Shown: in pieces, positions 14,153 through 62,011 of the stretch | Layout: every line of letters starts with the position of its first letter | Position numbering within the stretch: position 1 is the first letter of the stretch | From: Bacteroidota bacterium | Lineage (GTDB): Bacteria > Bacteroidota > Bacteroidia > JAHEXY01 | Assembly: GCA_023251875.1 (NCBI GenBank) | Contig: JAHEXY010000006.1 | Span: 1 to 64,000 of the forward strand | DNA: 64,000 nt | Direction of reading: 5' to 3' | Made by a program: the position numbers and the translations under genes | The notes under the pieces: generated by a model | Databases searched by the model: none | Told to the model about the DNA's origin: nothing | Seen by the model: only the letters and a program-made list of their open reading frames with translations

Positions 14153-14327
14153 CGTTTGGCAGCCTTGCGATGTGCTGGTTTAGAAAGCACTTCACTGTCT
14201 GCTACCACAAATATAAATTAAAAGCTCCACAGGTTATGGCAAGCGCCAACAAAATGTTTACACCACTGAAAAAATGCGCTTGCAGCTTGCACGAACCCCA
14301 GCATATTGCAAGGGTGCTGTTATAGCC
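14145..14327 (-). repeat. attC-like site 8 (long form with nested hairpin)
   Basis: Outer boxes are GGTGGTAAC (14145-14153) and GTTATAGCC (14319-14327). Arms are 14158-14178 and 14298-14317. The nested stem is GCAAGCGC (14239-14246) with GCGCTTGC (14276-14283). Sequence differs from sites 6 and 9 while pairing is kept. Confidence 0.85.
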
Positions 14328-14741: not shown

Positions 14742-14925
14742 GGCTATAACGGTTCGCAGCCTTGCGATGTGCTGGTATTACTTGCACTTCACTGTCTGCT
14801 ACCACAAATATAAATTAAATGCTCAACAGGTTATGGCAAATGTTTAGAAATAAATTTATACCGCTTTAATAAACATTTGCATCTTGCACGAACCCCAGCA
14901 TATTCGCAAGGGTGCTGTTACCAGT
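14742..14925 (-). repeat. attC-like site 9 (long form with nested hairpin)
   Basis: Outer boxes are GGCTATAAC (14742-14750) and GTTACCAGT (14917-14925). Arms are about 14756-14775 and 14895-14915, with one extra base in the right arm. The nested stem pairs 14836-14846 with 14870-14880 (GCAAATGTTTA). The loop has CACTTCACTGTCTGC as in site 8. Confidence 0.85.
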
Positions 14926-14933
14926 AGTTGTTT

Positions 14934-15509
14934 TTATCCATATTCGTCAACAAGTTGTCGTAAGTGTTTAAACAAATATGTCCGAGTTTCCTGATCCTTT
15001 TCGGTTTGAAGTCTTTTATTAATGTCAATAAACTTAGAACTTAAAAGTTTAAAGCTTTCCGTCTGCAAATAATTGTCCAACCATTCAGAAAAGCCTTGCA
15101 AGTCTGGAAGCTCGCTTAAATATTTACAATAGTCAGCGAACTCTATTGTTTCCCAATTTGAATGTTCAAATTTGTCTATGCGCTGAATAGGTCTGGAAAA
15201 ATAAATGTCGAAAAGGTAAGTGTTTGAACAAAACGTTTTAAATGCTTTTTTCTCAGCGTCTTTTAACTTTCCATTCTTGAAAAGTATAATTGTCCATTCA
15301 AATAAAAAGTCTGGCCGACCTATGTCGTCAGGGAAATTTTTATCAAACCACCTTAAATAAGTTAATCCACCAGAAAAGTCTGCAATTTTAATATACAAAC
15401 CGGTCGGTTCGTATCTAAGTCCGCGACTGTCGTCATAGCAACCAAACCTGCGTTTTTCAGAAGCAAGTGTCGCACGTATATTCTTAATTCTTGTTAACTC
15501 TCTTTTCAA
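14934..15509 (-). CDS. Hypothetical protein, cassette gene with TTG start or frameshifted 5' end
   Basis: A 191-residue frame opens with TTG at 15509; an in-frame stop lies just upstream. The nearby ATG at about 15524 opens a different frame that ends after 13 codons (M-T-E-N-N-F-E-K-R...). A one-base indel would join it to this gene. The product has no signal peptide or membrane segment and is aromatic-rich (Y-L-R-W-F-D-K-N-F-P-D-D, N-W-E-T-I-E-F-A-D-Y). I do not recognise a family. Its stop is 9 bp from the end of attC-like site 9. Confidence 0.65.
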   Translation of the reverse strand: MKRELTRIKNIRATLASEKRRFGCYDDSRGLRYEPTGLYIKIADFSGGLTYLRWFDKNFPDDIGRPDFLFEWTIILFKNGKLKDAEKKAFKTFCSNTYLFDIYFSRPIQRIDKFEHSNWETIEFADYCKYLSELPDLQGFSEWLDNYLQTESFKLLSSKFIDINKRLQTEKDQETRTYLFKHLRQLVDEYG

Positions 15510-15543
15510 AGTTATTCTCGGTCATAGTTGTCTACTTACAATT

Positions 15544-15679
15544 ACTGGTAACGTTTCGCAGCTACCCGAAGGGCGGGTCTTTTACCACAAAACTTGATTT
15601 GAAAAACTAAACTTCCATTAACCACAAAACTGTCTTTGGAACATGAAACCCCGCCTTTTGGGTAGCTGCTGTTATGTGC
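15544..15679 (-). repeat. attC-like site 10
   Basis: Outer boxes are ACTGGTAAC (15544-15552) and GTTATGTGC (15671-15679). Arms are 15558-15577 and 15650-15669 (GCAGCTACCC...GGCGGG). The arm sequence is unrelated to the GCGGG/TTGCG arms of its neighbours while pairing is kept. Confidence 0.85.
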
Positions 15680-15695
15680 TGCCCTATTTGTCATG

Positions 15696-16436
15696 CTATC
15701 CATGTCCGTTCAATTTATGTTGTCGGTGTGCTATGAAAATTAAAATAGTCATTACGCCAACGGAAACGAGTGAAGAATATAATGTGCCAAGATTAAGTCC
15801 ACCTTTGTCAAGTGGTTTAGTCAGAAAGTCACCAAAGGTTGCTCCGAATGGTCGGGTGAAAATAAAAGCAACCCAAAACAAAATGATGTGATTGATTTTA
15901 GTGAGATAGTGTAGAAGCACAACAACAAGAATTACTCCGCCTGTTACAATGGCACCTTGCAGATAACTTATTTCGAAATAGTCGCCAAGAAAATCTCCGA
16001 ATGCAGTTCCTAAACTATTGGAGAAAAGAATTGCTGTCCAATAGTAAATTTCTTTTTGCTTGTCAGTGATTGGAAATACTTCAAGATTCTGGTATTTGCG
16101 AAACCATAAAAACAAAGTGAGTAATAAGCAACTTACAAGTAAAATGCTTCCTGTGGTATAACCAAGATGTAGTGTTCTGTCAATGTAGTCGGAAATTTCT
16201 GTGCCTAAAGTTGTCGTGGCGATAATGACTAACCAATAAATAACTGGAACATATTTCTTTACTGCAAGTTGTGTGAATAATACGACAATAAAAAATACAA
16301 GGGTAATCACAATGCCAACTGTGTAACCCAAGTTTAAAGTCATGGAAATAAAATCGCCAAGGGTCGTGGCGACAATTTTCATAAGCCAAAATATCAAAGT
16401 GATTTTGGCAACCTTGTTCATTAGTTTTGTTGTCAT
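15696..16436 (-). CDS. COG4705-like multi-pass membrane protein
   Basis: The 246-residue protein has about eight hydrophobic segments and four internal repeats built on T-x-G-x-x-x-x-D-x-x...G-Y-x-x-G (A-T-T-L-G-D-F-I-S, T-T-L-G-T-E-I-S-D-Y, N-S-L-G-T-A-F-G-D-F and R-P-F-G-A-T-F-G-D-F). This repeat architecture fits the COG4705 membrane proteins, whose function is not established. It is third in its cassette, separated from the two upstream genes by an intrinsic terminator, so it may need its own promoter. Confidence 0.75.
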   Translation of the reverse strand: MTTKLMNKVAKITLIFWLMKIVATTLGDFISMTLNLGYTVGIVITLVFFIVVLFTQLAVKKYVPVIYWLVIIATTTLGTEISDYIDRTLHLGYTTGSILLVSCLLLTLFLWFRKYQNLEVFPITDKQKEIYYWTAILFSNSLGTAFGDFLGDYFEISYLQGAIVTGGVILVVVLLHYLTKINHIILFWVAFIFTRPFGATFGDFLTKPLDKGGLNLGTLYSSLVSVGVMTILIFIAHRQHKLNGHG

Positions 16437-16460
16437 ATGTGCTTGTCTTTTTGAATGGAT

Positions 16461-16495
16461 AAAAAAGCGAATACCGGCTTGCCGGTATTCGCTTT
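16461..16495 (-). terminator. Rho-independent terminator after the PepSY-like gene
   Basis: Perfect 15-bp arms (16464-16478 and 16481-16495, AAAGCGAATACCGGC) with a TT loop. On the minus strand the stem runs into TTTTTTA. It starts 12 bp after the PepSY-like stop codon. Confidence 0.9.
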
Positions 16496-16506
16496 AATTT
16501 TGTTAT

Positions 16507-16971
16507 TTAATCTTTCTTCTCTTTCCCTTCTACTTTTGTTTTGCTTAAAACTTTTCCGTCTGCTGAATACAGGACATCAAAAGTTTCTTCGCCTTTCTCA
16601 ACTTCGGCTTCATAACAGTTGCCGTTTTTCACACTTTCAATTTTACTGGCTTCGTTTATTTTGTAGCCCTCAAAATCTTTTTTGAGCGATGACTGTATTG
16701 CAGTAGGTAAGGCAGAAACTTTAATTTCAGTTTCTGTTTCCATCCACTTTCCTATATTGTCAAAGTTTGCAGAAACTTCTTCACTGTTCAGCTTGAAGTT
16801 AGCTTCATACTCTGTTTTTTCCATTTCCCAACTCACTTTTGTAGCAGTCGGAAATTTCGCCTTAAACGCTGATGTAACAGAAGCAGGAACTTTGTCGGCA
16901 GATATTTTTTGAGCATTAGCGACATTGCTCATCGTTGCTGCAACAAGCAGCATAAAAATTATTTTTCTCAT
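16507..16971 (-). CDS. Secreted PepSY-like (BLIP-type) protein
   Basis: This 154-residue protein has a signal peptide ending A-N-A-Q at residue 21. The mature part holds two PepSY-like repeats, marked by V-P-A-S-V-T-S-A-F-K-A-K-F-P-T-A...V-S-W-E and L-P-T-A-I-Q-S-S-L-K-K-D-F-E-G-Y. Such tandem repeats are common in small periplasmic proteins of Bacteroidota; the role is not firmly known, with metal stress or envelope sensing suggested. It follows the 130-residue gene with a 77-bp gap and ends at a strong terminator. Confidence 0.82.
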   Translation of the reverse strand: MRKIIFMLLVAATMSNVANAQKISADKVPASVTSAFKAKFPTATKVSWEMEKTEYEANFKLNSEEVSANFDNIGKWMETETEIKVSALPTAIQSSLKKDFEGYKINEASKIESVKNGNCYEAEVEKGEETFDVLYSADGKVLSKTKVEGKEKKD

Positions 16972-17048
16972 TTTCTTTATTATTAATTGTTTGAAATAAT
17001 GTTACTGTCAAATCCAAGATGGACTTGATAAAACTAAAAGTAAAAACA

Positions 17049-17441
17049 TTAACCTATCGGAGGGCGGAATACAAAAGGAGTGAAGTCTGAAAAATAAAAA
17101 CCCTCTGTGTAAATTGGGAAGTCGCTTTTTTTGGGTAACGGCTTTTGAAATGCAATTTTAAATCGTTGTGTTATAAAAATTGTCTGTGCAAGTGTGTGAT
17201 GAAGTTGAATAGGCGTATGCGGCTTTTGCTCATCTCCATTGTCGTGCTTGTCAAAAATGCCGTCAATATTTATGAGATGGTCTGTAATGAAGTCAAGTGG
17301 TGTCATATCCTTGTCCTCTGTCGCCTTGCAATGCTGATACATTACAGGCATGTCGCCAATTACTGAAAAGTCTCCCTGCGGTAAACAAAAAGTCCCGAAG
17401 AAGTAATATGTCAAAAGCAATATAGATGTCAGTCGTATCAA
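17049..17441 (-). CDS. Small protein with N-terminal hydrophobic segment, unknown function
   Basis: The frame opens with TTG at 17441; no in-frame ATG precedes it before a stop. The N-terminus is a hydrophobic helix (I-L-L-L-T-Y-Y-F-F-G-T-F-C), so the 130-residue protein is probably exported or anchored. The rest contains D-F-I-T-D-H-L-I-N-I-D-G-I-F-D and ends F-V-F-R-P-P-I-G. I recall similar short proteins near Bacteroidota metal-efflux genes, but cannot name the family with confidence. It is the first gene of a three-gene cassette. Confidence 0.65.
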   Translation of the reverse strand: MIRLTSILLLTYYFFGTFCLPQGDFSVIGDMPVMYQHCKATEDKDMTPLDFITDHLINIDGIFDKHDNGDEQKPHTPIQLHHTLAQTIFITQRFKIAFQKPLPKKSDFPIYTEGFYFSDFTPFVFRPPIG

Positions 17442-17511
17442 ATGTTTTTTATAACGGTAAAGTTATGTTTTTATTTCTGTCGGGTGATGATTGCACTGTC
17501 TTTTTAGGGTT

Positions 17512-17647
17512 GCACATAACGGTTCGGGGGTTTGCGAAGTGGCGGATTAAAACGCACATCACTGTCCCACAGCACAAAGATATTTAATTGCACGAAACTT
17601 TCTACTCGCAATGAAACCGCCATTTTCGCAAACGCCTTGTTAGCGCC
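17512..17647 (-). repeat. attC-like site 11 (nearest to the recombinase)
   Basis: Outer boxes are GCACATAAC (17512-17520) and GTTAGCGCC (17639-17647). Arms are 17526-17545 and 17617-17636. The minus strand opens GGCGCTAACAAGGCGTTTGCG, close to the start of classical attC sites, and its first nine bases complement the first cassette start at 18380-18388. Confidence 0.87.
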
Positions 17648-17649
17648 AG

Positions 17650-18369
17650 TTATTTTTCTATGAATTTATTTCCGTCAAAGTAGTATTGACCTTTTGTCCG
17701 CTTGTTCATATTGTCGTGAGTGTAGTCATATATTAATGTTTTAGTTGTCTTGTCGAATTTGAAAATTATATTTTCATAGGTGTCCGTGTCTATGGTAAAG
17801 AAAGATTTCTCGCCAAATGCAGAGTAGTCCAGTAAGTTGTCGCCTTGTATTTGAAAAACTCTTGCTCCATAGAAAAAACAAGAATTGCAACCCGTCCCGT
17901 TGCCAACAATTAAAAACAAATTTGTCTTGAGTTTGTAAATATTGGAATACCACAAGTTGTCTTCTGTTGCGCCTGATGCTTCACCGTCTATGGTTTTTAA
18001 AATTATTTTTCCTGTCGCTCCTTTACATTGAATAAAAGTTTTTGTCATGTGAAATGAACCGCCATTCCTTGCGTCAACTGTCAGTACGCGAAGTTGTCCA
18101 GCAGTGAGAAAAGAATAATTGTCCAGTATTTTAAACGAATAATTAAAAGTTGTCGGGGTTTTGAAAAAATTAATTACAACGCTGTCTAATGTATGGAATA
18201 AGGAATCCCGCAAGTCGGTGTCCGCAAGAGTAGTGTCAATTTGCCATTTTAATTTTAAATATGATTTTTCAAACAACAAAGTGTCCGCTGTCTTGGTTTG
18301 TCCTGCTGTCAAAAAAGGAAGAGCGAATAAAAACAAAAACGGAATTGTCTTAATGGACTGTCGTGTCAT
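17650..18369 (-). CDS. Secreted hypothetical protein, first cassette of the array
   Basis: I chose the ATG at 18369, which begins a good signal peptide (F-L-F-L-F-A-L-P-F-L-T-A-G-Q). The alternative ATG at 18405 lies on the recombinase side of the attI-like junction and cannot belong to the cassette. The mature protein of about 217 residues is beta-rich, with a G-C-N-S-C-F-F-Y-G motif near the middle and repeated Y/F-rich strands towards the end. I do not recognise the family. As the cassette closest to the promoter candidate it should be the best expressed. Confidence 0.75.
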   Translation of the reverse strand: MTRQSIKTIPFLFLFALPFLTAGQTKTADTLLFEKSYLKLKWQIDTTLADTDLRDSLFHTLDSVVINFFKTPTTFNYSFKILDNYSFLTAGQLRVLTVDARNGGSFHMTKTFIQCKGATGKIILKTIDGEASGATEDNLWYSNIYKLKTNLFLIVGNGTGCNSCFFYGARVFQIQGDNLLDYSAFGEKSFFTIDTDTYENIIFKFDKTTKTLIYDYTHDNMNKRTKGQYYFDGNKFIEK

Positions 18370-18468: not shown

Positions 18469-18500
18469 CAAATATAGTGTCTTTATTATAGATAATCGAA
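18469..18500 (-). promoter_or_regulatory. Candidate cassette promoter (Pc-like)
   Basis: On the minus strand TATATTTG (18476-18469) matches the Bacteroidota -7 consensus TAnnTTTG exactly. A TTCG at 18500-18497 lies 20 bp upstream in the -33 place (consensus TTTG). It points into the first cassette from about 80 bp away and starts inside the recombinase 3' end. Confidence 0.5.
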
Positions 18501-19604
18501 GGGAGAGGTAATGTTTTGAATGCTTTTTGTGCTAACATGTGTGTAAATTTCAGTAGTTCTACTGCTACTATGCCCTAATATTTCTTGTATGTATCTTAGG
18601 TCTGTTCCGCTTTCAAGCAAATGTGTTGCATAGCTATGTCTAAGCCAATGCAGCGTTACAGGTTTTTTAATACCAGCTTTTAATACACTTTGCTTAATCA
18701 CATTTTGTAAACTCCTTTCGTCATAAGGATTATTAGCAATTGCTCCTTCAAATAAATAAATTTTAGGCTTAAATGAAATATAATATGAACGAAGTAAATC
18801 AATAATCTTATTACTGAGTGGGGCTATTCTATCTTTTCTACCCTTTGCTTGTTTAATAATTAAAACGTTTCGTTTAGAATCTACATGTTCTGGCTTTAAT
18901 TTTAATATTTCACCACAACGTAAACCGCAAGCATATACTAATGATAACATGGCTTTATGTTTCAAATTTTGTGGCGCATCTAAAATTTTTTTGACTTCTT
19001 CTTTGCTCAAAACATTGGGTAATAATTTAGAACGTTTAGGCCGGTGAATAACTTCAATATTGATGGTAGTATCTTTTATTGTTGTAAAAAATAATTTAAT
19101 GGCATTTACTACTTGGTTTTGATAAGAGGCTGATAATTTGTGTTTCAAAATAAATTCATTGTTAAATACAATAACATCATTATTATTAATTTCAGTAATA
19201 GGTTTTTGCCAAAAAAATTTTAAAAATGATTGTAGTGCATTGGTATAGGTTTCAATAGTACTATCGCTATATCTTTTTGAACGCATCCAATGTTTATACT
19301 TTTCAATTTTATCTATTGCTTCTATTGTTAAATGATTATGGTTTGAGTGAGTTTTGATATACTTTTCCTTTGCTAATTTCTCTTTTAAAATACTGGCATC
19401 AATTTTTGCATATCCATTAAATATGTCTTTTATCTGGTATAATGCTTGATTCGAATATACAGTATACCAAGCTCTTTGGGTGTTACTCCATTCAATATTT
19501 TCTATTCGTTTAACTTTTTCTATTAAATACTTATCATACGGAAATTTTAAAAGCAAAATTTCTTTTCCCTTGTGGCTCGTTTTATCAAGTATAAGATTTA
19601 TCAT
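18486..19604 (-). CDS. Tyrosine recombinase, Xer-like, probable cassette integrase
   Basis: The 372-residue protein has an extra N-terminal domain of about 85 residues (H-K-G-K...W-S-N-T-Q-R-A-W-Y), a SAM-like core-binding domain at about 95-180 and a C-terminal catalytic domain. Catalytic residues are Arg229, Lys254, His319, Arg322, His345 and Tyr354. Only 65 residues separate the Lys from the first His, against about 72 in XerD and about 106 in IntI1 (from memory), so the IntI-specific insertion is absent. The end I-T-S-P-F-D-Y-L resembles Xer/IntI tails. It reads towards the array, the reverse of classical intI. Adjacency to the attI-like end is the basis for calling it the integrase. Confidence 0.85.
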   Translation of the reverse strand: MINLILDKTSHKGKEILLLKFPYDKYLIEKVKRIENIEWSNTQRAWYTVYSNQALYQIKDIFNGYAKIDASILKEKLAKEKYIKTHSNHNHLTIEAIDKIEKYKHWMRSKRYSDSTIETYTNALQSFLKFFWQKPITEINNNDVIVFNNEFILKHKLSASYQNQVVNAIKLFFTTIKDTTINIEVIHRPKRSKLLPNVLSKEEVKKILDAPQNLKHKAMLSLVYACGLRCGEILKLKPEHVDSKRNVLIIKQAKGRKDRIAPLSNKIIDLLRSYYISFKPKIYLFEGAIANNPYDERSLQNVIKQSVLKAGIKKPVTLHWLRHSYATHLLESGTDLRYIQEILGHSSSRTTEIYTHVSTKSIQNITSPFDYL

Positions 19605-20295: not shown

Positions 20296-20303
20296 TATCT
20301 TTG
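20296..20303 (+). promoter_or_regulatory. Candidate promoter -7 box of the radical SAM gene
   Basis: TATCTTTG fits TAnnTTTG and sits 32 bp before the TTG start at 20336. Confidence 0.4.
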
Positions 20304-20335
20304 ATTGTAATTATTAATTCATAATTAGTGTAAGA

Positions 20336-22285
20336 TTGAATCCATCTATCCTTTTAATAACTCCTCCCTTAACTCAACTCAATACCCCTTATCCTGCAAC
20401 AACCTATCTTAAAGGATTTTTAAATACAAAAAATATTGAGTCTCATCAGGCCGATTTAGGAATAGAATTAATCCTCGCTTTATTTTCAAAAAAAGGCTTA
20501 GAAGAAATTTTTGAAAATCTTTCTAAAAATTATCCTTTGCCCCTCTATCCTTTGGGAGCACCAGTCCCGATTTTTCGGGAGGGTAGGGATGAGGGCAACA
20601 AAAAAATAATTTTGAGAACGATTCAGTCTTTTTCTCAAAACAGTATACATATTTTATCTCATAAAAATCAATACATTCAAACCATTGATGCTACAATTCG
20701 TTTTCTGCAAAATAAAGATGCAACACTGGCTCATTTAATTTCGAATAGACGGTTTTTACCCGAAGCCTCTCGCTTTAATCAATTGGTAGATTTGGAATGG
20801 GCTTTTGGTACCATGGGTATTCAAGATAATGCAAAATATTTGGCTACACTTTATATAGAAGATATTGGCGATTTAATTATTGAAACCATTAATCCACATT
20901 TTGGGTTTTCTCGTTATGCTGAAAAAATTGCAATGTCAGCAACAACGTTTGATAAAATAGATCGTGCATTAAAGGCAAAAACAAATTATACAGATAAGGT
21001 TTTATTAGAACTGCTTGATAAACATCTTCAAAAAACAAAACCTCATATAGTAGGTTTTTCAGTTCCCTTTCCTGGAAATTTATACGGAGCTTTAAAATGT
21101 GGCCAATACATCAAACAAAATTATCCCCATATAAAAGTTGTAATGGGTGGTGGTTACCCTAATACAGAGCTACGAGAATTAAGTGATACAAGGGTTTTTA
21201 ATTATGTCGATTTTATTACGCTTGATGATGGAGAAGGTCCTATTTTAAAACTTCTTGAATATGTTTCAGGAAAAAGAAATATGGAGCAATTGCAAAGAAC
21301 TTTTGCATTGCGAGATAATCAAGTCGTTTTTTTTAATAGTTGTGCTGATGTAGATATTTCTCATTCAAAAGTGGGAACACCTGATTATGCTGATTTACCA
21401 CTTGATCAATATTTGTCAACCCTAGATATGGTAAATCCCATGCACCGTTTATGGAGTGACGGCAGTTGGAATAAACTTACCATTGCACACGGTTGTTATT
21501 GGAAAAAATGTTCTTTTTGTGATATTACGTTGGATTATATCAGAAGATACGATCAAACCTCTGCAAGTATTTTAGTAGATAGAATTGAAACAATAATAAA
21601 GCAAACCGGTGAAACCGGATTTCATTTTGTTGATGAAGCAGCCCCTCCTGCTGCTTTAAAAAGTTTAGCCATAGAGCTAATTAAAAGAGGAACAAAAATT
21701 TCTTGGTGGACCAACATTCGTTTCGAAAAAACATTTACAAAAGAACTTTGTGATGTAATGGCAGCTTCTGGCTGTATTGCGGTAACGGGAGGTTTAGAAG
21801 TTGCTTCTGATCGATTATTGAAATTAATGGAAAAAGGAGTTTCTATTGAACAAGTAACAAAAGTTACACAAGCTTTTACTGATGCTGGAATAATGGTACA
21901 TGCTTATTTGATGTATGGCTTCCCTACCCAAACAGCTCAAGAAACAATAGATTCATTAGAGGTAGTTCGTCAATTATTTGAAAATGGGCTATTGCAATCG
22001 GCATTTTGGCATAGATTTACTATGACTGCTCACAGCCCTGTTGGAAAAAATCCGGAAAAGTATAAAGTAATTAGAGTTGGACCGGAGAAAGGAAGCTTTG
22101 CCAATAATGATTTCATTCATGAAGATACTACAGGGTGTGATCATGATTTATTTTCTGAAGGCTTAAAAATTGCCCTTTACAATTATATGCAGGGTTTAGG
22201 CTTTGAATTACCTTTACAAAAATGGTTTGAATTTAAAGTGCCTAAAACATCTCATTCAAAAAATTTGATTATTGGTTATCTTTAA
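20336..22285 (+). CDS. B12-binding-domain radical SAM protein
   Basis: The 649-residue enzyme opens with I-L-L-I-T-P-P, typical of B12-binding radical SAM proteins. The Rossmann-like domain includes K-P-H-I-V-G-F-S-V-P-F-P-G-N and V-V-M-G-G-G-Y-P-N. The cluster motif H-G-C-Y-W-K-K-C-S-F-C (Cx4Cx2C) follows at about 386-396, and the TIM barrel ends with A-Y-L-M-Y-G-F-P-T. Reaction and substrate are unknown. The start is TTG at 20336; a stop lies upstream in frame with no ATG. Residues about 68-88 come from a palindromic repeat inserted in frame (20538-20594). Confidence 0.87.
   Translation: MNPSILLITPPLTQLNTPYPATTYLKGFLNTKNIESHQADLGIELILALFSKKGLEEIFENLSKNYPLPLYPLGAPVPIFREGRDEGNKKIILRTIQSFSQNSIHILSHKNQYIQTIDATIRFLQNKDATLAHLISNRRFLPEASRFNQLVDLEWAFGTMGIQDNAKYLATLYIEDIGDLIIETINPHFGFSRYAEKIAMSATTFDKIDRALKAKTNYTDKVLLELLDKHLQKTKPHIVGFSVPFPGNLYGALKCGQYIKQNYPHIKVVMGGGYPNTELRELSDTRVFNYVDFITLDDGEGPILKLLEYVSGKRNMEQLQRTFALRDNQVVFFNSCADVDISHSKVGTPDYADLPLDQYLSTLDMVNPMHRLWSDGSWNKLTIAHGCYWKKCSFCDITLDYIRRYDQTSASILVDRIETIIKQTGETGFHFVDEAAPPAALKSLAIELIKRGTKISWWTNIRFEKTFTKELCDVMAASGCIAVTGGLEVASDRLLKLMEKGVSIEQVTKVTQAFTDAGIMVHAYLMYGFPTQTAQETIDSLEVVRQLFENGLLQSAFWHRFTMTAHSPVGKNPEKYKVIRVGPEKGSFANNDFIHEDTTGCDHDLFSEGLKIALYNYMQGLGFELPLQKWFEFKVPKTSHSKNLIIGYL
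20538..20594 (+). repeat. Palindromic repeat inserted in frame in the radical SAM gene
   Basis: Outer arms CCCCTCTATCC and GGGTAGGGATGAGGG flank an inner stem CCCGATTTTTCGGG. The same inner stem and flanks (GTCCCGATTTTTCGGGA) occur in the intergenic copy at 33943-33997. It encodes about 20 residues (L-Y-P-L-G-A-P-V-P-I-F-R-E-G-R-D-E) without breaking the frame. Confidence 0.75.
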
Positions 22286-22407
22286 TAATGATCCACTTTG
22301 TTCAAAAGAAAAATTTTAATTTTGCAAATAACTTATGACATCTTAGTGTCCAATAATTTAATTAGCTAATCAGCTAATTATCACATTAGCTAATTATTTA
22401 TTCTGTC

Positions 22408-23625
22408 ATGGATAAAAACCGCATCATATACATCACTATTCTTGTTGCCGCACTTGGCTACTTCGTAGATATTTATGATCTCATACTTTTTAGTATTGTT
22501 CGCATAAAAAGTCTAAAAGGACTTGGCATTACAGATGCACATTTATTAGAAACGCAAGGGCAATTTTTACTCAACATGCAAATGATTGGCATGTTAACCG
22601 GTGGTATTTTATGGGGAATATTAGGAGATAAAAAAGGGAGACTTTCAGTTTTGTTCGGATCAATTATTATGTATTCATTGGCAAATATTGCCAATGGTTT
22701 TGTACAAACGGTAGATCAATATGCCGTTCTCCGTTTTATTGCAGGAATTGGTTTAGCCGGTGAATTAGGAGCGGGCATTACTTTAGTAAGCGAAATTATG
22801 CCTAAAGAAACCCGTGGTTATGGAACTATGGTTGTTGCTACCATTGGCTTATTGGGTGCAATTGTAGCCGGGCTTATTGCTGAAACTTTTGACTGGCGGC
22901 AAACCTATTTTATTGGAGGTGGAATGGGAATTGCGTTACTCGCACTAAGAATTGGAGTAGCCGAATCAGGTATGTATGCTGCTTTAAAAGAAGAAAAAAC
23001 AAACAAAGGTAATTTCTTTATCCTTTTTAAGAATAAAAAAAATACACTTAAGTATTTAAAAGGAATTTTTATTGCATTACCAATATGGTATTGTATTGGT
23101 ATTTTAATTACGTTGGCTCCTGAATTTAGCAAAGAGAAGTCTTTTACAGATTCTATACAAGTCTCAAAAGCGGTGATGTTTACTTATGCCGGTACGGCCA
23201 TTGGTGATTTACTTTGTGGCTTACTCAGCCAAATGATGAAAAGTAGAAAAAAAGTATTACTCTATTATCTATTGTTTGCTGTTGTTTGTGTAATAGCATA
23301 TTTGTTTAATCCATTTTCTTCGCTCAGTATTTATTATTCCTTATGTTTCTTTTTGGGAATTGGCATTGGCTATTGGGCTGTTTTCGTAACAGTAGCAGCA
23401 GAACAATTTGGCACAAACATACGTGCTACCGTAACAACAACTGCCCCTAATTTTGTTCGCGGTTCATTGGTGCCTATGAGTTTGTTGTTTAAATTTTTTC
23501 GTTCTTCTAACATCAGCTTTATAGAAAGTGCGGTTATTGTTGGAATACTAGCCTTTTCAATTGCTTTTATTTCCTGGTATTATTTAGATGAAACTTTTGG
23601 CAAGGATTTGAATTATACCGAGTAA
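22408..23625 (+). CDS. Major facilitator superfamily transporter
   Basis: The 405-residue protein has about 12 hydrophobic segments. The loop after helix 2 is G-D-K-K-G-R (MFS motif A), and the fourth/fifth-helix region G-I-G-L-A-G-E-L-G-A-G-I-T-L-V-S-E-I-M-P-K resembles the metabolite/H+ symporter group of sugar and aromatic-acid carriers. Asp21 and Asp24 in helix 1 (F-V-D-I-Y-D) could couple protons. Substrate unknown. It has no operon partner on the same strand within 100 bp. Confidence 0.88.
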   Translation: MDKNRIIYITILVAALGYFVDIYDLILFSIVRIKSLKGLGITDAHLLETQGQFLLNMQMIGMLTGGILWGILGDKKGRLSVLFGSIIMYSLANIANGFVQTVDQYAVLRFIAGIGLAGELGAGITLVSEIMPKETRGYGTMVVATIGLLGAIVAGLIAETFDWRQTYFIGGGMGIALLALRIGVAESGMYAALKEEKTNKGNFFILFKNKKNTLKYLKGIFIALPIWYCIGILITLAPEFSKEKSFTDSIQVSKAVMFTYAGTAIGDLLCGLLSQMMKSRKKVLLYYLLFAVVCVIAYLFNPFSSLSIYYSLCFFLGIGIGYWAVFVTVAAEQFGTNIRATVTTTAPNFVRGSLVPMSLLFKFFRSSNISFIESAVIVGILAFSIAFISWYYLDETFGKDLNYTE

Positions 23626-23701
23626 TTTTTCTGATTATTTCTTAAAAACGTTTCTTATTTTTTTATTTAAGAAAGCTATCTTGCAATTATTTAGTCCTTA
23701 C

Positions 23702-23735
23702 TACTCCCGCTCCTTTGAAGAGGGAGTAGGTGAGG
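23702..23735. repeat. Palindromic intergenic repeat (CTCCC..GGGAG family)
   Basis: ACTCCCGCTCCTTTGAAGAGGGAGT forms a hairpin followed by GGTGAGG. One of a dispersed family in this window. Confidence 0.6.
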
Positions 23736-23759
23736 TTATAACCTATAAACCCTGATTAA

Positions 23760-25199
23760 ATGAAAAAATTAATTACCTATTTATTGAGTTGTTACATTGT
23801 TTTTTCAATTCAATTTTCTTATGCTCAATTTGGTAATCTTCAAAATCAAATTAAAGGAGCTGTAAAACCAACGTCAACTAATAAGGCTTCTTCAAGTTCC
23901 GGAAGCACAAATTCAAACTCATCTTCAAATAATAATTCTTCAAGTACATCATCCTCTAATTCTTCTGTACCAGCAGCACAGGGCAAAGATTATTATGTAA
24001 GTATTACGCGAGGAAAAGGAAAAGTAGCCAGCAAAGAAGAACCGGCAAAAGATTTAGGAAATATTATTGCGCAACTTTTACCTGGTGATGTTATTCATAT
24101 TGCTGAAGGAACCTACCTTTCAAGAGGTGAAGCCGGAGCTGATGAAATTGGCGTTCCTGTTACTATTATTGGTGGCTATGATGATAATTTTACATCAAGA
24201 GATCCTTGGGGATCGCATAAAACAATATTTACTGGCACTAATGCAATAAGTGGTTCTACACAATGCCGATTAAAAATTACTGCAAACACTGATAATAGCA
24301 ACGTAACAGTTGATGGAATTGTATTTGATAATGGTCCACGTAATAGATACAAAGATGCTAATAAACCTTATTTAATTTTAAGAACTGCCGATCCTAATAC
24401 CGGCATTAATGCTACGCCAGAATCAGGTGCGTTATACATTACTTGTGGCAAGTATTGCAATATTGTGGTAAAAAACTGCGTGGCTATTAATACGGCTCCT
24501 ACAGGTGGTGTAATTTCAACAATGCCCGGTGAAGCTGGAAAAGTTACCATCGAAAATAATTTGGTTGTGAACAATACAGGCGAAGGCATTTTTGCCATGA
24601 GTGGTTGGCATCCTCGTGATAATGCTAATCTTCCTGAATACACCATTAAAAACAATACTGTTTTATTTTGCTGGAAACACGATGCCATTGCTACTTATGG
24701 TGGTAACGGATTAAAACTAGATACAGATGTAAAAATTGACGCAGAAAACAATGTATTTGGCTTTGGCGATTATGGAGGTATTGATAATATTAAACTCTGT
24801 AAATCAGTTACATTAAAAAATAATTTAGTGTTGGGAAACCGCCAATATGATTATAGAGAATATAACACTGCTATGAAAATTGATCAAATTGAAGACGAAG
24901 CTGATCAAATTCAACCTACAAGTACAGGAAACATAAGCAAAATGGTGACTATTCCAGTTTCAAAAGAATGGTCCACATTATATGCAAATCGCAAAGAAGT
25001 AAGCCGTGCACAGGTGGATGCTGCTGCAAAAGTGAGTAATTCCGATGCCAATGCCGTAAGAAGTATTTTGGGCCTACCACTTCAAGCAGGTTCTGTTGCT
25101 ATGGATGCAGATGTATGGCTTCATAAAATAGCTATTGAGGATGCTTTAAAAGCAGGTATGCAAAAGTATGATGGTAAGTTTGGTTGTTCTAAACCATAA
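23760..25199 (+). CDS. Secreted right-handed beta-helix protein with Ser/Asn-rich linker
   Basis: The 479-residue protein has a signal peptide (cleavage near S-Y-A-Q at about 23) and a low-complexity Ser/Asn/Thr stretch at about 43-72. A parallel beta-helix domain follows, recognisable by L-L-P-G-D-V-I-H-I-A-E-G-T-Y and repeated strands such as V-T-I-E-N-N-L-V-V-N-N and Y-T-I-K-N-N-T-V-L-F-C. This fold occurs in pectate lyase-like enzymes and adhesins. No T9SS sorting domain is visible, so it is probably periplasmic or exported by another route. Substrate unknown. Confidence 0.82.
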   Translation: MKKLITYLLSCYIVFSIQFSYAQFGNLQNQIKGAVKPTSTNKASSSSGSTNSNSSSNNNSSSTSSSNSSVPAAQGKDYYVSITRGKGKVASKEEPAKDLGNIIAQLLPGDVIHIAEGTYLSRGEAGADEIGVPVTIIGGYDDNFTSRDPWGSHKTIFTGTNAISGSTQCRLKITANTDNSNVTVDGIVFDNGPRNRYKDANKPYLILRTADPNTGINATPESGALYITCGKYCNIVVKNCVAINTAPTGGVISTMPGEAGKVTIENNLVVNNTGEGIFAMSGWHPRDNANLPEYTIKNNTVLFCWKHDAIATYGGNGLKLDTDVKIDAENNVFGFGDYGGIDNIKLCKSVTLKNNLVLGNRQYDYREYNTAMKIDQIEDEADQIQPTSTGNISKMVTIPVSKEWSTLYANRKEVSRAQVDAAAKVSNSDANAVRSILGLPLQAGSVAMDADVWLHKIAIEDALKAGMQKYDGKFGCSKP

Positions 25200-25207
25200 T
25201 AATTCCA

Positions 25208-25246
25208 AGCTCCCATCTCCATTTGGGAGAGGGGCAGGGTGAGGGC
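25208..25246. repeat. Palindromic intergenic repeat
   Basis: CTCCCATCTCCATTTGGGAG hairpin followed by AGGGGCAGGGTGAGGGC. Same family as 33011-33047 and 61251-61288. Confidence 0.65.
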
Positions 25247-25349
25247 CTAAGGCATTTATGGAAATTTTCTCATAAGTACTTGTCTTATATCTTAATAAAT
25301 TATAAATTTGTATTCTTAAAATTATTAGAAACAAGTGTAATTTGAAAAA

Positions 25350-25739
25350 ATGATGGAAACAGAAGAAAGAGAGACAAGAGAAAATACAAGTACAGAAAAC
25401 AGACCCGAAATTTTTTCTAGGGCAGTACGTGCAGGCAAACGCACTTACTTTTTTGATGTGAAGTCTACCAAAGCAGAAGATTACTATCTGACCGTTACCG
25501 AGAGTAAAAAACGTTTCCGAAACGATGGAAGTTTTTACTATGAAAAACACAAATTATTTCTTTACAAAGAAGATTTTGAAAAATTTACCGATGCATTAAC
25601 GGAATCTCTTGGATTTATTAATGATCCTAACAGACCTGCACCGGTAAAAGTTACTGAAACAGTTGTAACATCTAATGGTGATGCAGAACATAATAAATTT
25701 ACTGACGTAAGTTTTGAAGACCTCGAAGAAAGAGCCTAA
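25350..25739 (+). CDS. DUF3276 / PUR-alpha-like nucleic-acid-binding protein
   Basis: The 129-residue protein matches the Bacteroidota DUF3276 family, related to PUR-alpha single-stranded nucleic-acid-binding proteins. Its core is I-F-S-R-A-V-R-A-G-K-R-T-Y-F-F-D-V-K at about 21-38, then D-Y-Y-L-T-V-T-E-S-K-K-R-F and an L-F-L-Y-K-E-D-F-E-K-F strand-helix pair. Both tails are acidic. The family is thought to bind ssDNA or RNA; a precise role is not known to me. ATGs at 25350 and 25353 are equally possible starts. Confidence 0.85.
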   Translation: MMETEERETRENTSTENRPEIFSRAVRAGKRTYFFDVKSTKAEDYYLTVTESKKRFRNDGSFYYEKHKLFLYKEDFEKFTDALTESLGFINDPNRPAPVKVTETVVTSNGDAEHNKFTDVSFEDLEERA

Positions 25740-25892
25740 GAATTTATTTGTCTATTAGTCAATATACAAGAGCATACCTGATAAAGGGTGCTCTTGTTTT
25801 GTTAATGCCACTTCGTTGGCTTCGAGAACCTCAGCCAACGAGTATGGTGGCTGAGGCTCCCGAAGCCACACGATTAAAAAAAGAAATATTTT

Positions 25893-26138
25893 GTGAAAAT
25901 AGTAAACATAAAATACGTAAAAGATTATCTCTTAAATGTTGAATTAAATGGAGGTAAATTTAAAATGATTAATCTCCAATTTTTTCTTGAAAATAGTAAA
26001 CATCCATTAATTAGAAAATACCTTAAAAAGACACTTTTTTAAAAAGTTTATATAGATGAGCTTGGAGTTTTATGTTGGGGCGATAATGAAATGGATATTA
26101 ATCCAGAGAGTATAATTAATGGGGAATTTGATGTATAA
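25893..26138 (+). pseudogene. DUF2442-like small protein, interrupted by an in-frame stop
   Basis: From GTG at 25893 the frame reads M-K-I-V-N-I-K-Y-V-K-D-Y-L-L-N-V-E-L-N-G-G..., hits TAA at 26040-26042, then continues in the same frame with K-V-Y-I-D-E-L-G-V-L-C-W-G-D-N-E-M-D-I-N-P and stops at 26136. The two halves together give about 80 residues, the normal length for DUF2442 proteins with their G-D-N-x-D-I-N-P box. The gene is probably dead through a nonsense change, unless the stop is a sequencing error. It fills most of the 25740-26156 gap, whose first part holds palindromes around CCTCAGCC/GGCTGAGG. Confidence 0.65.
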
Positions 26139-26156
26139 ATTTAATCTGTCACTACA

Positions 26157-27143
26157 ATGCAAAACGCACTAACCCAAACCAACTTTAAATTTCCCAACCA
26201 AAAAAGCTTTTACAAAGGCAAAGTAAGAGATGTTTATAATATTGATAACACCTATTTGGTAATGGTAGTAAGCGATCGCATCTCGGCATTTGATGTAGTA
26301 CTTCCTAAAGGTATTCCTTACAAAGGCCAAGTGCTAAATCAAATTGCATATAAATTTATGCAAGCTACTGCTGATATAGTTCCTAATTGGGTTGTTTCTG
26401 TTCCTGACCCCATGGTTACTATAGGCCATGTTTGCGAACCCTTTAAAGTTGAAATGGTAATTCGTGGTTATCTATCGGGCCATGCATGGAGAGAATACAA
26501 AGCGGGCAAAAGAACTTTATGCGGTGTAACAATGCCAGAGGGAATGAAAGAAAACGATAAATTCCCTCAGCCTATTATTACGCCAACTACAAAAGCACAC
26601 GAAGGCCATGATGAAGATATTTCAAGAGAAGAAATCATTAAATCGGGTTTGGTTTCTGAAAGTGATTATGTACAACTAGAAAAATATACAAGAGCCGTAT
26701 TTCAAAGAGGTACTGAAATAGCTGCTAAAATGGGCTTAATATTAGTAGATACCAAATACGAATTTGGAAAAAAAGACGGCAAAATTTATTTGATTGATGA
26801 AATCCATACACCTGATTCTTCTCGTTATTTTTATTTAGATGCTTATCAAGAAAGACAAAATAGGGGAGAAGCTCAAAAACAACTTTCAAAAGAATTTGTT
26901 CGCCAATGGTTAATCGAAAACGAATTTCAAGGCAAAGATGGGCAAATAGTACCCAACATGCCTGATGCGTTTGTAAATTCTACATCTGAAAGATATATTG
27001 AGTTGTATGAAAAAATTACGGGTGAAAAGTTTGTAAAGTCAGATGTGTCAAATGTTTTAACTAGGGTAGAAAAAAATATTAATGCCTTTCTTTCTAAAAC
27101 TAAAGACCTCTCCCTAGCCCTCTCCAAAGGAGAGGGAAATTAA
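26157..27143 (+). CDS. purC: SAICAR synthase
   Basis: Phosphoribosylaminoimidazole-succinocarboxamide synthase joins CAIR and aspartate using ATP in purine synthesis. Visible signatures are Y-K-G-K-V-R-D-V-Y at about 19-27, S-D-R-I-S-A-F-D-V near 41-49, [12 protein letters not shown] and [13 protein letters not shown]. At 328 residues it is the longer form usual in Bacteroidota. The last ten codons ([11 protein letters not shown]) come from a palindromic repeat that overruns the gene end. It stands alone; purS lies 35 kb away. Confidence 0.97.
27108..27137. repeat. Palindromic repeat overlapping the purC 3' end
   Basis: CTCTCCCTAGCCCTCTCCAAAGGAGAGGG supplies the last codons of purC just before its stop. 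Member of the family at 25208, 33011 and 61251. Confidence 0.7.
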
Positions 27144-27229
27144 ATTGAGCAAAGCTCATAGCTAATAAAATAACGAGAATCGATTTTAAAAACCTTGTAG
27201 CTTTTATATTGAGGTTAGAATAAAAAAAC

Positions 27230-27237
27230 TAAATTTG
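27230..27237 (+). promoter_or_regulatory. Candidate promoter -7 box of the TPR gene
   Basis: TAAATTTG fits TAnnTTTG, 28 bp before the ATG at 27266. Confidence 0.45.
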
Positions 27238-27265
27238 CAAACCTAAAAATTGAAAACACAAAATC

Positions 27266-27970
27266 ATGGCAGACGAAAAATTTGAAGAACAAGAGTTACC
27301 CGTTGTTGAAACAAAAGGAACATCGATTGAAAAAGCTGAAGACTTTTTTGAAAAAAATAAGAATGTATTGGCTTATGTTTTAGTGGGTGTATTGGCCATT
27401 GTTGCCGGATATCTTGGTTGGACAAAATTCATTATAGAACCACGTGAAAAAGATGCTCAAGCAAAAATGTGGATGGCCGAACGCTATTTCGAAAAAGACT
27501 CTCTCGATAAAGCAATCAATGGAGATGGTAATTATCCTGGTTTTGAAGAAATAGCCACTGGTTATGGAATGACTAAATCTGCAAATCTTGCTCAATATTA
27601 TTGGGGCATTGCATTGCTAAAAAAAGGACAGTTTGAAGAAGCCATTGAACACTTGAAAAAATTTGATTCAGAGGATCAAATGGTAGGTGCAGTTGCTTTG
27701 GGTGCTATTGGCGATGCTAATATGGAACTCGGTAAAAATGATGAAGCACTTGATTATTATTTAAAAGCCGCTAATAAAGTAACCAACGATTTTACAACTC
27801 CGGTATATTTAATGAAAGCAGCTGTTGCCTATGAAGGAGCCGGTAATTATGATGGAGCTGTGGCAATCTATCAACAAATAAAAGATAAGTTTCCCAAAAC
27901 ACGCGAAGCGCAAGATGCACCAAAATATATGGCTAGAGCAAAAGCCATGGCAGAGAATACAAAAAAATAG
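27266..27970 (+). CDS. Membrane-anchored TPR protein, YfgM/Tol-Pal-type
   Basis: The 234-residue protein has an acidic cytosolic N-terminus, one transmembrane segment at about 33-54 (V-L-A-Y-V-L-V-G-V-L-A-I-V-A-G-Y-L-G-W) and a periplasmic TPR domain with repeats around K-K-G-Q-F-E-E-A-I-E-H-L-K-K-F and L-G-K-N-D-E-A-L-D-Y-Y-L-K-A-A. The topology matches YfgM-like proteins, which assist periplasmic chaperones or BamB-linked assembly. In Bacteroidota such a gene is often near ribH, as here. Confidence 0.82.
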   Translation: MADEKFEEQELPVVETKGTSIEKAEDFFEKNKNVLAYVLVGVLAIVAGYLGWTKFIIEPREKDAQAKMWMAERYFEKDSLDKAINGDGNYPGFEEIATGYGMTKSANLAQYYWGIALLKKGQFEEAIEHLKKFDSEDQMVGAVALGAIGDANMELGKNDEALDYYLKAANKVTNDFTTPVYLMKAAVAYEGAGNYDGAVAIYQQIKDKFPKTREAQDAPKYMARAKAMAENTKK

Positions 27971-28185
27971 GTTCTATAACGAACACTATGGGTTAATTAA
28001 TTTGGTTCTTCGTCAAAAACTGTAGATTTCTTTTATGACGCTTCGGCTGAGCGAAGTCGAAGACTCTGAAAAAAGGGATCTAAAATAGTTTTTTAATAAA
28101 ATTTATACAGGCTCTAAAAGGGTAGCAGCAATGTTGCCCTTTTTTATTTTACGCGAATTAGTTTTAGATTCGTTTAAAGTAAATT

Positions 28186-32965: not shown

Positions 32966-33010
32966 TTCTCTGCATTTTTTTATAAAGCGATTAACCTTAA
33001 ATAGAACATT

Positions 33011-33047
33011 CACCCTCTCCTTTTGGGAGAGGGCTAGGGTGAGGGCT
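33011..33047. repeat. Palindromic intergenic repeat
   Basis: ACCCTCTCCTTTTGGGAGAGGG hairpin followed by CTAGGGTGAGGGC. It overlaps the first codons of the rejected longer thioesterase frame. Confidence 0.65.
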
Positions 33048-33156
33048 ACTAAATTAATCTATTTTTAATAAGATTATACAGCAATTTTTCGGAACTTTGC
33101 AGCCCATTAAAGCTTGCCTTTAGTAATTAGACATTAGTAATTAGTTTTTTCGAACC

Positions 33157-33933
33157 ATGGCTTTTCTTCTTAGAACTTATAATTATGCTTTTATTTTATT
33201 GCTAACATTAGTGGTTGGCTGTTATCCATACGCAAAAATAAAAAGCGTTGATACAAAAGTAATCCCTTTTGATTCTACCTATGCAAAGGCTGATGAAGAT
33301 GCTCAAATAAATGCCATGGTATTGCCATACAAACTTAAAAAAGATTCTGTGATGCATTCAGAATTGGGTACTTCTGAAATGGCTATGGTTAAAGGATTGC
33401 CCGAAGGTTTATTGGGCGATTTTGTTTCTGATCTTGTTTTGCAAGAAGCTCGATTGCATTATAAACCTAAAGATGGTAAACAGGTTGATATTTGTTTGCT
33501 GAATAATGGAGGTTTACGTACTTCTCTTCCTAAAGGAGTTATTACCCGTGAAAAAGCTTTTGAATTGATGCCTTTTGATAACATGACAGTTGTTGTTACT
33601 TTATCTGGAGAGGAAACCAAATCACTTTTTGATTTTGTTGCCAGAATGGGAGGCATGCCAATGGCAGGCGCCAAACTTGGTGTAAAAGATTCCGTAGCAT
33701 CCGTTATTGAAATAGGAGGAAAACCATTTGATATCAATCAATCTTATAAAGTAGCTACTTCTGATTATTTATCTAATGGAGGTGATAAAATGAATTTTTT
33801 TAAAAATCCTTTAGAGACAGAAGTATTAGGAATTTTATTGCGTGATGCCATTATTGAATATATGACTAATGAAACCAAACAAGGAAGAAAATTGAGTGCT
33901 AAATTAGATGGAAGAATATATAAAATCAATTGA
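33157..33933 (+). CDS. 5'-nucleotidase C-terminal-domain lipoprotein
   Basis: The 258-residue protein has a lipoprotein-type signal with V-V-G-C at Cys22, then a stand-alone 5'-nucleotidase C-terminal domain: N-N-G-G-L-R-T near 112-118, E-L-M-P-F-D-N-M at about 132-139 and Y-K-V-A-T-S-D-Y-L-S-N-G-G-D near 194-207. In full-length enzymes this domain binds the nucleotide base, while the metallophosphatase domain, here in the next gene, does the chemistry. The two genes lie 124 bp apart on the same strand, so they probably make one functional enzyme. Confidence 0.88.
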   Translation: MAFLLRTYNYAFILLLTLVVGCYPYAKIKSVDTKVIPFDSTYAKADEDAQINAMVLPYKLKKDSVMHSELGTSEMAMVKGLPEGLLGDFVSDLVLQEARLHYKPKDGKQVDICLLNNGGLRTSLPKGVITREKAFELMPFDNMTVVVTLSGEETKSLFDFVARMGGMPMAGAKLGVKDSVASVIEIGGKPFDINQSYKVATSDYLSNGGDKMNFFKNPLETEVLGILLRDAIIEYMTNETKQGRKLSAKLDGRIYKIN

Positions 33934-33942
33934 GCATTAATA

Positions 33943-33997
33943 CCTCTCCCTAATCCTCCCGAAAAATCGGGACAGGTACTCCGAAGGAGAGGGAGGG
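33943..33997. repeat. Composite palindromic repeat
   Basis: CCTCTCCCTAATCCTCC and GGAGAGGGAGGG flank an inner CCCGAAAAATCGGG stem. It is the same element, inverted, as the one inside the radical SAM gene. Confidence 0.7.
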
Positions 33998-34057
33998 TTT
34001 GGAATATTTTATTTTAAAAACTTTGAACATTGAACGTTCAAACTTTGAACTAACAGT

Positions 34058-37580: not shown

Positions 37581-37675
37581 TAAGGGCAGTTGTAAAATTG
37601 ACTTTTCTAGCCCTCATCCTGACCTTCTCCCTTGGGAGAAGGAAACTTAAATGATAATTTTTAGAACTGCCCTTT
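37581..37675. repeat. Nested inverted repeat reaching the 3' end of a T9SS gene
   Basis: TAAGGGCAGTT (37581-37591) pairs with AACTGCCCTTTA (37665-37676). Inside lies the CCTTCTCCCTTGGGAGAAGG hairpin (37623-37642) of the dispersed family. The right arm covers the last codons of the gene ending at 37661 (K-G-Q-F). It could serve as a two-way terminator between convergent genes. Confidence 0.65.
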
Positions 37676-61192: not shown

Positions 61193-61250
61193 GAAATTAA
61201 GAATTATAGACTTAGTTGAGTAGATGTAATAATTACAAAAATAATTCCAA

Positions 61251-61288
61251 GCCATCCCTCTCCAAAGGGAGAGGGGCAGGGTGAGGGC
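61251..61288. repeat. Palindromic intergenic repeat
   Basis: CCCTCTCCAAAGGGAGAGGGGCAGGGTGAGGGC-type hairpin between corA and pssA; same family as 25208-25246. Confidence 0.65.
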
Positions 61289-61300
61289 TTAAAAATAAAA

Positions 61301-62011
61301 ATGAAAAAACATATCCCCAATGCTCTTACCTGTGGCAATCTTTTTTGTGGTTGCATAGCGATAGTGTGCATCTTTAATCAACAACTTTCTTATGCTTCGT
61401 ATTTAATTGCCCTTGCTGCTGTATTTGATTTTTTTGATGGATTTGCAGCACGTATGTTAAATGTAAAATCAGCTATTGGCCTGCAATTAGATTCATTAGC
61501 TGATATGGTAACTTTTGGTGTGGTACCAGGGTCTATTATTTTCAAATTACTCTCAGATAATTTAGAAAAGTATAATTTACCCAATGAATTAGCTTTCTTA
61601 GCTTTTTTTATAAGTGTATTTTCTGCTTTGCGTTTAGCTAAATTTAATGTTGATACGCGACAAACAGAATCTTTTATTGGTTTGCCTACACCGGCTAATG
61701 CTATTTTAATTGGATCATTTCCTCTTATCTTAAAACAATTACCTATAGATTATTCAATATTACCGTATACACTTCTCAATCCGTATTTTTTATTAGCGTT
61801 AACGGCACTTATGTCGTTTTTATTGGTTTCAGAAATACCCATGTTTTCATTTAAGTTTAAAAATTTCTCTTGGCAGGATAATAAAATTCGTTTTATTTTT
61901 ATGGGGATAACAGTAGTGCTTTTGATACTTTTGCAGTTTGCAGCTATCCCATTTGTAATTGCAGGATATATTGCACTTTCAATATTTAATAATATGATGA
62001 TTAAGAAATAA
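61301..62011 (+). CDS. pssA: CDP-diacylglycerol-serine O-phosphatidyltransferase
   Basis: PssA makes phosphatidylserine, the precursor of phosphatidylethanolamine. The 236-residue membrane protein starts with H-I-P-N-A-L-T-C-G-N-L-F-C-G. It contains the CDP-alcohol transferase signature D-F-F-D-G-F-A-A-R...G-L-Q-L-D-S-L-A-D at about 43-68, whose aspartates bind metal. Seven or eight hydrophobic segments are visible. Confidence 0.95.
   Translation: MKKHIPNALTCGNLFCGCIAIVCIFNQQLSYASYLIALAAVFDFFDGFAARMLNVKSAIGLQLDSLADMVTFGVVPGSIIFKLLSDNLEKYNLPNELAFLAFFISVFSALRLAKFNVDTRQTESFIGLPTPANAILIGSFPLILKQLPIDYSILPYTLLNPYFLLALTALMSFLLVSEIPMFSFKFKNFSWQDNKIRFIFMGITVVLLILLQFAAIPFVIAGYIALSIFNNMMIKK

Follow-up and report, generated by a model that had tools for sequence, protein, structure and literature searches.

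Palindromic repeats that sit in frame inside protein-coding genes have been described in two systems. According to the accessible text of PMC2229807, Rickettsia palindromic elements (RPEs) lie in 19 reading frames and a guanylate kinase that carries one of them is active, and the accessible text of PMC10969869 gives 44 insertions in R. conorii. The second system consists of GTAG/CGTC REPs lying wholly inside open reading frames, which add about 20-30 residues in many species according to the available part of PMC3733652. With RPEs and intragenic REPs as precedents, the in-frame phenomenon is therefore already known. Among open-licence papers on in-frame or intragenic palindromes in Bacteroidetes, PMC3733652 was the only one relevant by its title. 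The peptide string PSPLGEG was not found in the open-licence literature. To our knowledge, the mobiliser of many in-frame palindromes is not known, and what is new here is a lead to such a mobiliser (DUF559) rather than the in-frame palindromes themselves.

The repeat analyzed here lies in a B12-binding/radical SAM gene within a 64,000-nucleotide stretch of Bacteroidota DNA (hereafter the window). Like the RPEs, its family comprises intergenic palindromes as well as palindromes placed in frame within conserved protein genes that are unrelated to one another. The two differ in size, build and phylum (105-146 bp in Rickettsia, as given in the accessible RPE text, against modular elements of 51-78 nt here), and their sequences are seemingly unrelated, RPEs being set apart by length and description rather than by sequence comparison. 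They also differ in the association with DUF559 genes found here, since none is reported for RPEs in the accessible text of PMC2229807 and PMC10969869. Unlike the intragenic REPs, the present family has no GTAG/CGTC tag in its consensus and its core is absent beside Y1 genes. The original prediction had called the repeat REP-like; the term remains apt as a description, but no link to REP (Y1) transposases was found. Cyanobacteria have very small repeats of about 20 nt with suspected mobility (Elhai 2008, as cited in PMC2884548 and in the reference list of PMC3116915); in a comparison based on the one-line citation in PMC2884548, they resemble the 21-nt inner hairpin of the present elements, which is shared by two palindrome families.

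The in-frame element of the radical SAM gene

The 649-aa host protein matches the Pfam families Radical_SAM (8.6e-13) and, below the curated cut-off, B12-binding (8.2e-7), and its closest folds in the PDB are TsrM and OxsB. The GC content of the insert is 0.58 compared with 0.34 for the gene. As a check on the predicted insertion, the protein was aligned with its homologues. The linker between F59 and Y113 measures 53 aa in the host; across the 86 Bacteroidota homologues that were aligned its median length is 23 aa, and the element peptide was found in none of these 86 sequences. Nine of them came from eight class-relative genomes (linker 20-23 aa, median 23) and 77 from named genomes (median 23); the latter represent the best 80 of more than 80 relatives, from which L159, L180 and L222 were dropped as their start motif was not found. 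The in-frame insertion is a direct outcome of computation: the observation of an in-frame palindromic repeat is confirmed, and its earlier reading as an inserted element is supported. The absence of a frameshift stood as predicted, while the gain of about 20 residues did not, the net gain over homologues being about 30. The claim that the insertion is recent was not borne out because the closest homologues are just ~55-68% identical. As a separate observation, the C-terminus of the radical SAM protein falls about 70-140 residues short of seven of the nine class-relative homologues; the other two, L028 and L029, are likewise short, though without the insert.

The linker site is an indel hotspot. 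Linkers longer than 50 aa with other residues occur in three of the 77 named-genome homologues (L177, L182 and L201). The insert of L182, from a Saprospiraceae MAG, is an unrelated long palindrome in the same linker with an RNA fold of -67 kcal/mol. A pattern search of the L182 genome with the 15-nt unit of this palindrome gave 57 matches (at most one mismatch, some overlapping), compared with none for the control. The loop has therefore taken up palindromes at least twice, and the unrelated palindrome of this other lineage serves as a natural replicate. A further insert at the same site, in L173, is palindromic as well; its sequence is single in its genome, where the base model described below gave one weak match. 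The inserts of L177 and L201 fold weakly. An AlphaFold model of the host protein, built with 40 of the 80 homologues, has a mean pLDDT of 84 and places residues 69-94, with pLDDT below 50, between two helices. The predicted low-confidence loop agrees with the suggestion that the insert forms a surface loop; the model is consistent with such a loop rather than proof of it, because gapped alignment columns by themselves depress confidence.

Within the window, the exact inner hairpin TCCCGATTTTTCGGGA of the genic copy recurs once, on the opposite strand at 33957-33972, and a search allowing three mismatches gave no further match (two in total against 0.24 expected; 2 of 100 shuffles reach two). 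The original prediction had matched the genic repeat to an intergenic copy at 33943-33997. The shared core was upheld, whereas the second copy proved to be inverted and the element to span 72 nt, not the 57 nt given for the genic repeat. The two copies form inverted repeats of 43 nt that are 81% complementary, and they are identical at 42 of 72 positions with a longest run of 19. Their scores with the covariance model R1 are not independent evidence, because both belong to the 12 sequences on which the model was trained. The inverted copy is intergenic, as the preceding reading frame ends at 33933, giving a 2-nt overlap with the first stop, and the next one starts at 34058. Imperfect AT-rich arms widen the genic palindrome to 20516-20623, and the DNA fold of 20510-20630 reaches -20.5 kcal/mol (z -3.2; 1 of 200 shuffles equally good). 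Rfam gave four matches in 20300-34300, all below the gathering score, and matched neither element copy.

Table 1 Element copies and related features in the 64-kb window
Feature	Position	Strand	Evidence
B12-binding/radical SAM gene, carrier of the insert	20336..22285	+	open reading frame, 649 aa, TTG start
Composite palindromic element, in frame	20534..20605	+	model R1 75.4 bits (training sequence); missing from 86 homologues
Inner hairpin TCCCGATTTTTCGGGA	20565..20580	+	exact; 15 identical sites in the genome
Left AT-rich arm, pairs with 20601-20623; may be part of the insert	20516..20538	+	83% complementary over 23 nt
Right AT-rich arm	20601..20623	+	complementary to 20516-20538
Inverted intergenic composite copy	33932..34003	-	model R1 78.2 bits; between reading frames
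Base copy without inner hairpin	25199..25261	+	model R2 46.9 bits; not in frame in a gene by the census rule
Base copy	27090..27148	-	model R2 42 bits
Base copy	32998..33061	+	model R2 45.7 bits
Base copy	37595..37658	-	model R2 52.2 bits
Base copy	61241..61303	+	model R2 66.9 bits

Modular anatomy, genome copies and host genes

Copy number and anatomy were likewise computed directly. A pattern search of the genome returned 27 matches at 21 places, compared with none for the reversed pattern. The exact core occurs at 15 places, 12 of them belonging to family A and three to a second palindrome family. The composite model R1 gave at least 104 matches with E of 10 or less among the best 150 of 1983 candidates; among those retrieved, 47 have a length of exactly 51 nt and therefore lack the 21-nt inner hairpin. 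With a base model (R2), at least 150 matches were obtained, and merging both models yielded at least 178 candidate elements, including 32 composite ones. Model R1 alone contributed 28 of the 178, four of them with E above 1, one of which is genic.

The elements are modular, with a base unit of 51 nt and an inner hairpin of 21-27 nt that is present or absent. The base consensus (AATTCCAAAC..CCCTCTCCCTTGGGAGAGGGTTAGGGTGAGGGC) is a GC-rich hairpin, formed by a left arm and a right arm (arm R1), after which the right arm is repeated once (arm R2). Over 47 base copies 91% of the stem cells are paired and 14 cells are altered on both sides; this covariation is not decisive, because a slide by +3 scores equally. 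The inner hairpin is of the type TCCCGATTTTTCGGGA or GTCCCGAACTTGNTTCGGGA. The second palindrome family has nine copies (L343-L351 of the same genome; at most one mismatch to a 17-nt probe), in which the outer arms are constant and the inner hairpin is exchanged between two modules, one resembling TCCCGATTTTTCGGGA and the other CCAATGAAATTGG. Exact inverted flanks of at least 9 nt place 18 of the 178 copies, none of them genic, inside larger palindromes. Direct flank matches over the 178 copies were in slight excess (5.25, compared with 5.06 when flanks were mispaired; the shuffle means had an sd of 0.08) and gave no clear target-site duplication of the kind that marks a MITE, and the genic copies had no excess (4.79 against 4.88).

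Within reading frames of at least 150 aa, 29 of the 178 candidates listed are in frame. Such frames cover 82% of the window, yet so few elements are in frame, and most copies are therefore extragenic, a class that would also take in copies that broke their gene. Folding is no weaker in genic than in extragenic copies, the energies being similar (-9.8 against -8.9 kcal/mol for base and -11.5 against -11.3 kcal/mol for composite copies). The genic share is higher for composite than for base elements (11/32 against 18/146, Fisher 0.006, from the best 150 candidates per model), a preference to be taken with caution because scoring the best 150 per model may miss diverged genic base copies. All 11 genic composite copies measure 72, 75 or 78 nt, every one a multiple of three. 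A strict choice of reading frame was considered and rejected: a frame could be assigned to 17 of the 18 genic base copies, and five of the six frames are represented among them, so no single-frame rule applies.

Hosts named through Pfam include TsaD, a RecQ-type helicase, an RsmF-type methyltransferase, UbiD, DUF2520 and DUF2851 proteins, a 4'-phosphopantetheinyl transferase, an NRPS, a PKS, an alpha-2-macroglobulin, a ComEC-type protein, RsmA, an ABC-F-type protein, MetH and a TRAM-domain methyltransferase. MiaB, carboxynorspermidine decarboxylase (NspC) and a KAPA-synthase-like enzyme were named through the PDB, and the remaining hosts were named from sequence or left nameless. Nine host genes were aligned to homologues or to PDB entries; the extra stretch was clear in seven and weak in one. 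Relative to solved structures, the residues added at the element number about 22 in TsaD, about 23 in RecQ (two best matches), about 13 in RsmF, 11 in MiaB, about 8 in NspC and about 7 in RsmA; the KAPA-synthase-like host has a weak excess of four, and the alignment of UbiD with its solved relative stops at the element. Three further element-like peptides in frame were noticed by eye outside the census, at the N-terminus of RsmA, in the TRAM-domain methyltransferase and in the DUF2851 protein.

Under stricter filters, base-model matches occurred in 17 of the 60 genomes searched, own genome included, that is, in 16 of 59 class relatives. At four of 27 distinct relative loci, a reading frame of 150 aa or more encloses the hairpin, with 25 codons preceding and 12 following it. 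In several hairpin-bearing reading frames, a DUF559 domain adjoins the element.

DUF559 genes and flanking hairpins

The association of hairpins with DUF559 (PF04480) is a direct result of the computations. The genome itself has three DUF559 stretches, each with GC hairpins nearby by eye. One of them lies in frame inside the activation domain of MetH, splitting PF02965 into two stretches. A family-A hairpin scoring 33.9 bits stands at the 3' end of this DUF559 domain, and a second, inverted hairpin with the lower score of 22.9 bits precedes the domain by about 140 nt, the interval being occupied by MetH residues. Among the DUF559 loci only this copy is directly beside a family-A hairpin, and the hairpins elsewhere differ in sequence. 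In the relatives, a DUF559 stretch occurs at six of the 27 loci picked for the hairpin alone, against none of 80 radical SAM loci. It is in frame within HsdR (L236) and LeuRS (L254), forms short reading frames at L238 and L257, is broken at L243 and is truncated by the locus end at L237. A tblastn search of plasmids with a DUF559 protein of this genome gave 41 records, all below 60% identity, from which 12 were taken (five Cyanobacteriota, three Deinococcota and four Alphaproteobacteria).

A strict left-arm/R1/R2 motif was then scored on the flanks of these loci. Both flanks carried the motif at 7/12 plasmid loci (11/12 on at least one flank) and at 2/3 loci of the genome itself, compared with 0/5 palindrome-selected loci (4/5 on one flank) and 0/14 viral loci on either flank. 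In the controls it occurred on both flanks of 0/48 and on one flank of 1/48 radical SAM genes, and in 5/480 shuffled plasmid flanks. For both flanks, own and plasmid loci together differ from the radical SAM genes (9/15 against 0/48, Fisher 2e-7), a control set that is not GC-matched. An inverted match between the two flanks exceeded the 99th percentile of mispaired flanks at 7/12 plasmid, 2/3 own, 1/5 palindrome-selected and 2/14 viral loci and at 1/48 control loci; a further palindrome-selected locus, L237, was left out of this comparison on account of its short flank. The own locus L369 lacks the strict motif, and its inverted-flank score is not above the control. Deinococcus loci have nearly identical inverted arms of ~70 nt (L372) and 56 nt (L394). 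In Pseudanabaena galeata, DUF559 lies in frame within a 4866-nt CDS that has an MmeI-type methyltransferase domain. It was also observed that DUF559 adjoins or lies within DUF1156, PglX or MmeI-type methyltransferase genes on four cyanobacterial plasmids (L373, L374, L375 and L376).

We take DUF559 to be akin to the Vsr/EDxHD-type homing endonucleases. Its profile matches the PDB entries 3r3p, a 'Mobile intron protein' (1.2e-6), a likeness to homing endonucleases, and 3hrl, an 'Endonuclease-Like Protein' (7e-31), and the residues E, D, H and D are invariant across seven aligned domains. Unlike homing endonuclease genes, the DUF559 gene can be bracketed by hairpins here and can sit in frame in a host gene; for four DUF559 host reading frames, the Pfam matches included neither an intein nor an intron. 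An initial viral scan with a single DUF559 protein query found no relative. In the open-licence literature, judged by titles and the beginnings of abstracts, no paper was found that joins DUF559 to palindromes.

Candidate mobilisers

With high confidence, we regard the genic element as a non-autonomous member of a family of palindromic mobile elements that a tolerant linker has accommodated without loss of frame. A permissive linker of the radical SAM protein would have received one copy of the modular palindrome, and this copy would have been retained in the gene because it is free of stops and its length is a multiple of three; for the enzyme, the insert was probably close to neutral. The element may be a non-autonomous relative of a larger one, in which hairpins bracket a homing-endonuclease-like DUF559 gene, and the solo hairpins would derive from this larger element. 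The endonuclease might move the hairpins through DNA breaks that trigger copying during repair. It is the best candidate for the mobiliser, as hairpins of this design often stand on both sides of its own gene, and we consider the chances of its being the mover to be evenly poised. The same even balance applies to the explanation taken whole, namely a multi-copy modular palindrome in a permissive linker that is related to a DUF559-hairpin element with the endonuclease as candidate mover. More tentatively, and on balance with some doubt, DUF559 could mobilise a widespread and unrecognised class of bacterial elements, in which an endonuclease gene lies between inverted left-arm/right-arm/right-arm hairpins. 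Such elements would insert between genes and, without splicing, in frame in host enzymes, and would seed solo hairpins as ready in-frame peptides, including the radical SAM insert. This class would extend over Bacteroidota, Cyanobacteriota, Deinococcota and Alphaproteobacteria, with MetH, HsdR, LeuRS and a methyltransferase-type protein among its hosts.

The main doubts about DUF559 as mobiliser are that it might be a passenger or a parasite homing into hairpins, that the viral genes are mostly free of hairpins, and that hairpin sequences differ between loci. In the strongest alternative, a MITE/REP-like palindrome is moved by another enzyme and DUF559 is only a frequent neighbour, for example through homing of the DUF559 genes into hairpins or through a shared preference for the same loci. 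This alternative is possible though rather doubtful. The imbalance between at least 150 family copies and three DUF559 genes in the genome argues for it, as does the absence of hairpins from most viral DUF559 genes, whereas the mutually inverted hairpins on both sides of the gene, found at 7/12 plasmid loci in three phyla, resemble the ends of an element.

Movement of the element as a REP by a RAYT (Y1) transposase is improbable. The pairing of RAYTs with REPs is the standard case in the accessible text of PMC3116915 and the genome has seven Y1 genes, but the core (CTCTCC...GG) was found at none of the seven Y1 loci within 1.5 kb on each side, and RAYT was rejected as the mobiliser. L083 has only a 9-nt match to the tail and L088 a match resembling the inner hairpin, and the GTAG and CGTC letters, missing as a tag from the consensus, occur in just 23 and 4 of the 178 copies on either strand. 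At several of the Y1 loci (L082-L088 of the same genome), the flanks carry short palindromes that differ in sequence from the element, such as the CCGCTACGCGG or CCCGAAGGG types. A parent transposon enclosed by close pairs of elements was also considered and rejected: of 19 pairs less than 2.6 kb apart, 13 fell within one locus, and 11 of these 13 had reading frames between them, which gave no BLAST match. An ordinary divergent linker with a chance palindrome, for which the variability of the linker and the three long linkers with other residues would speak, is so improbable as to be negligible given the recurrence of the exact 16-mer core against an empty reversed-pattern control, the absence of the insert from all 86 homologues and its GC content within an AT-rich gene.

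Should DUF559 prove to be the mobiliser, an unnamed common domain would gain a function and the origin of the palindromes would become testable. Proteins, probably including essential ones, would then have a route to gain loops of ~17-26 residues, and an endonuclease domain could ride within an enzyme gene without an intein.

Two other regions of the window deserve mention. The stretch 107-17657 together with 18486-19604 (-) looks like a chromosomal integron with spaced attC-like repeats (families D1, D3, D8, D9, D11 and D16); beside these repeats lies a tyrosine recombinase of 372 aa, for which NCBIfam gave integron/Xer integrases as the best matches, none of them reaching its curated cut-off. 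Diverged direct-repeat families (D4-D7, D10 and D12-D15), spaced by ~1.6 and 9.8 kb, occupy 39376-52349 and perhaps represent duplicated genes for large surface proteins.
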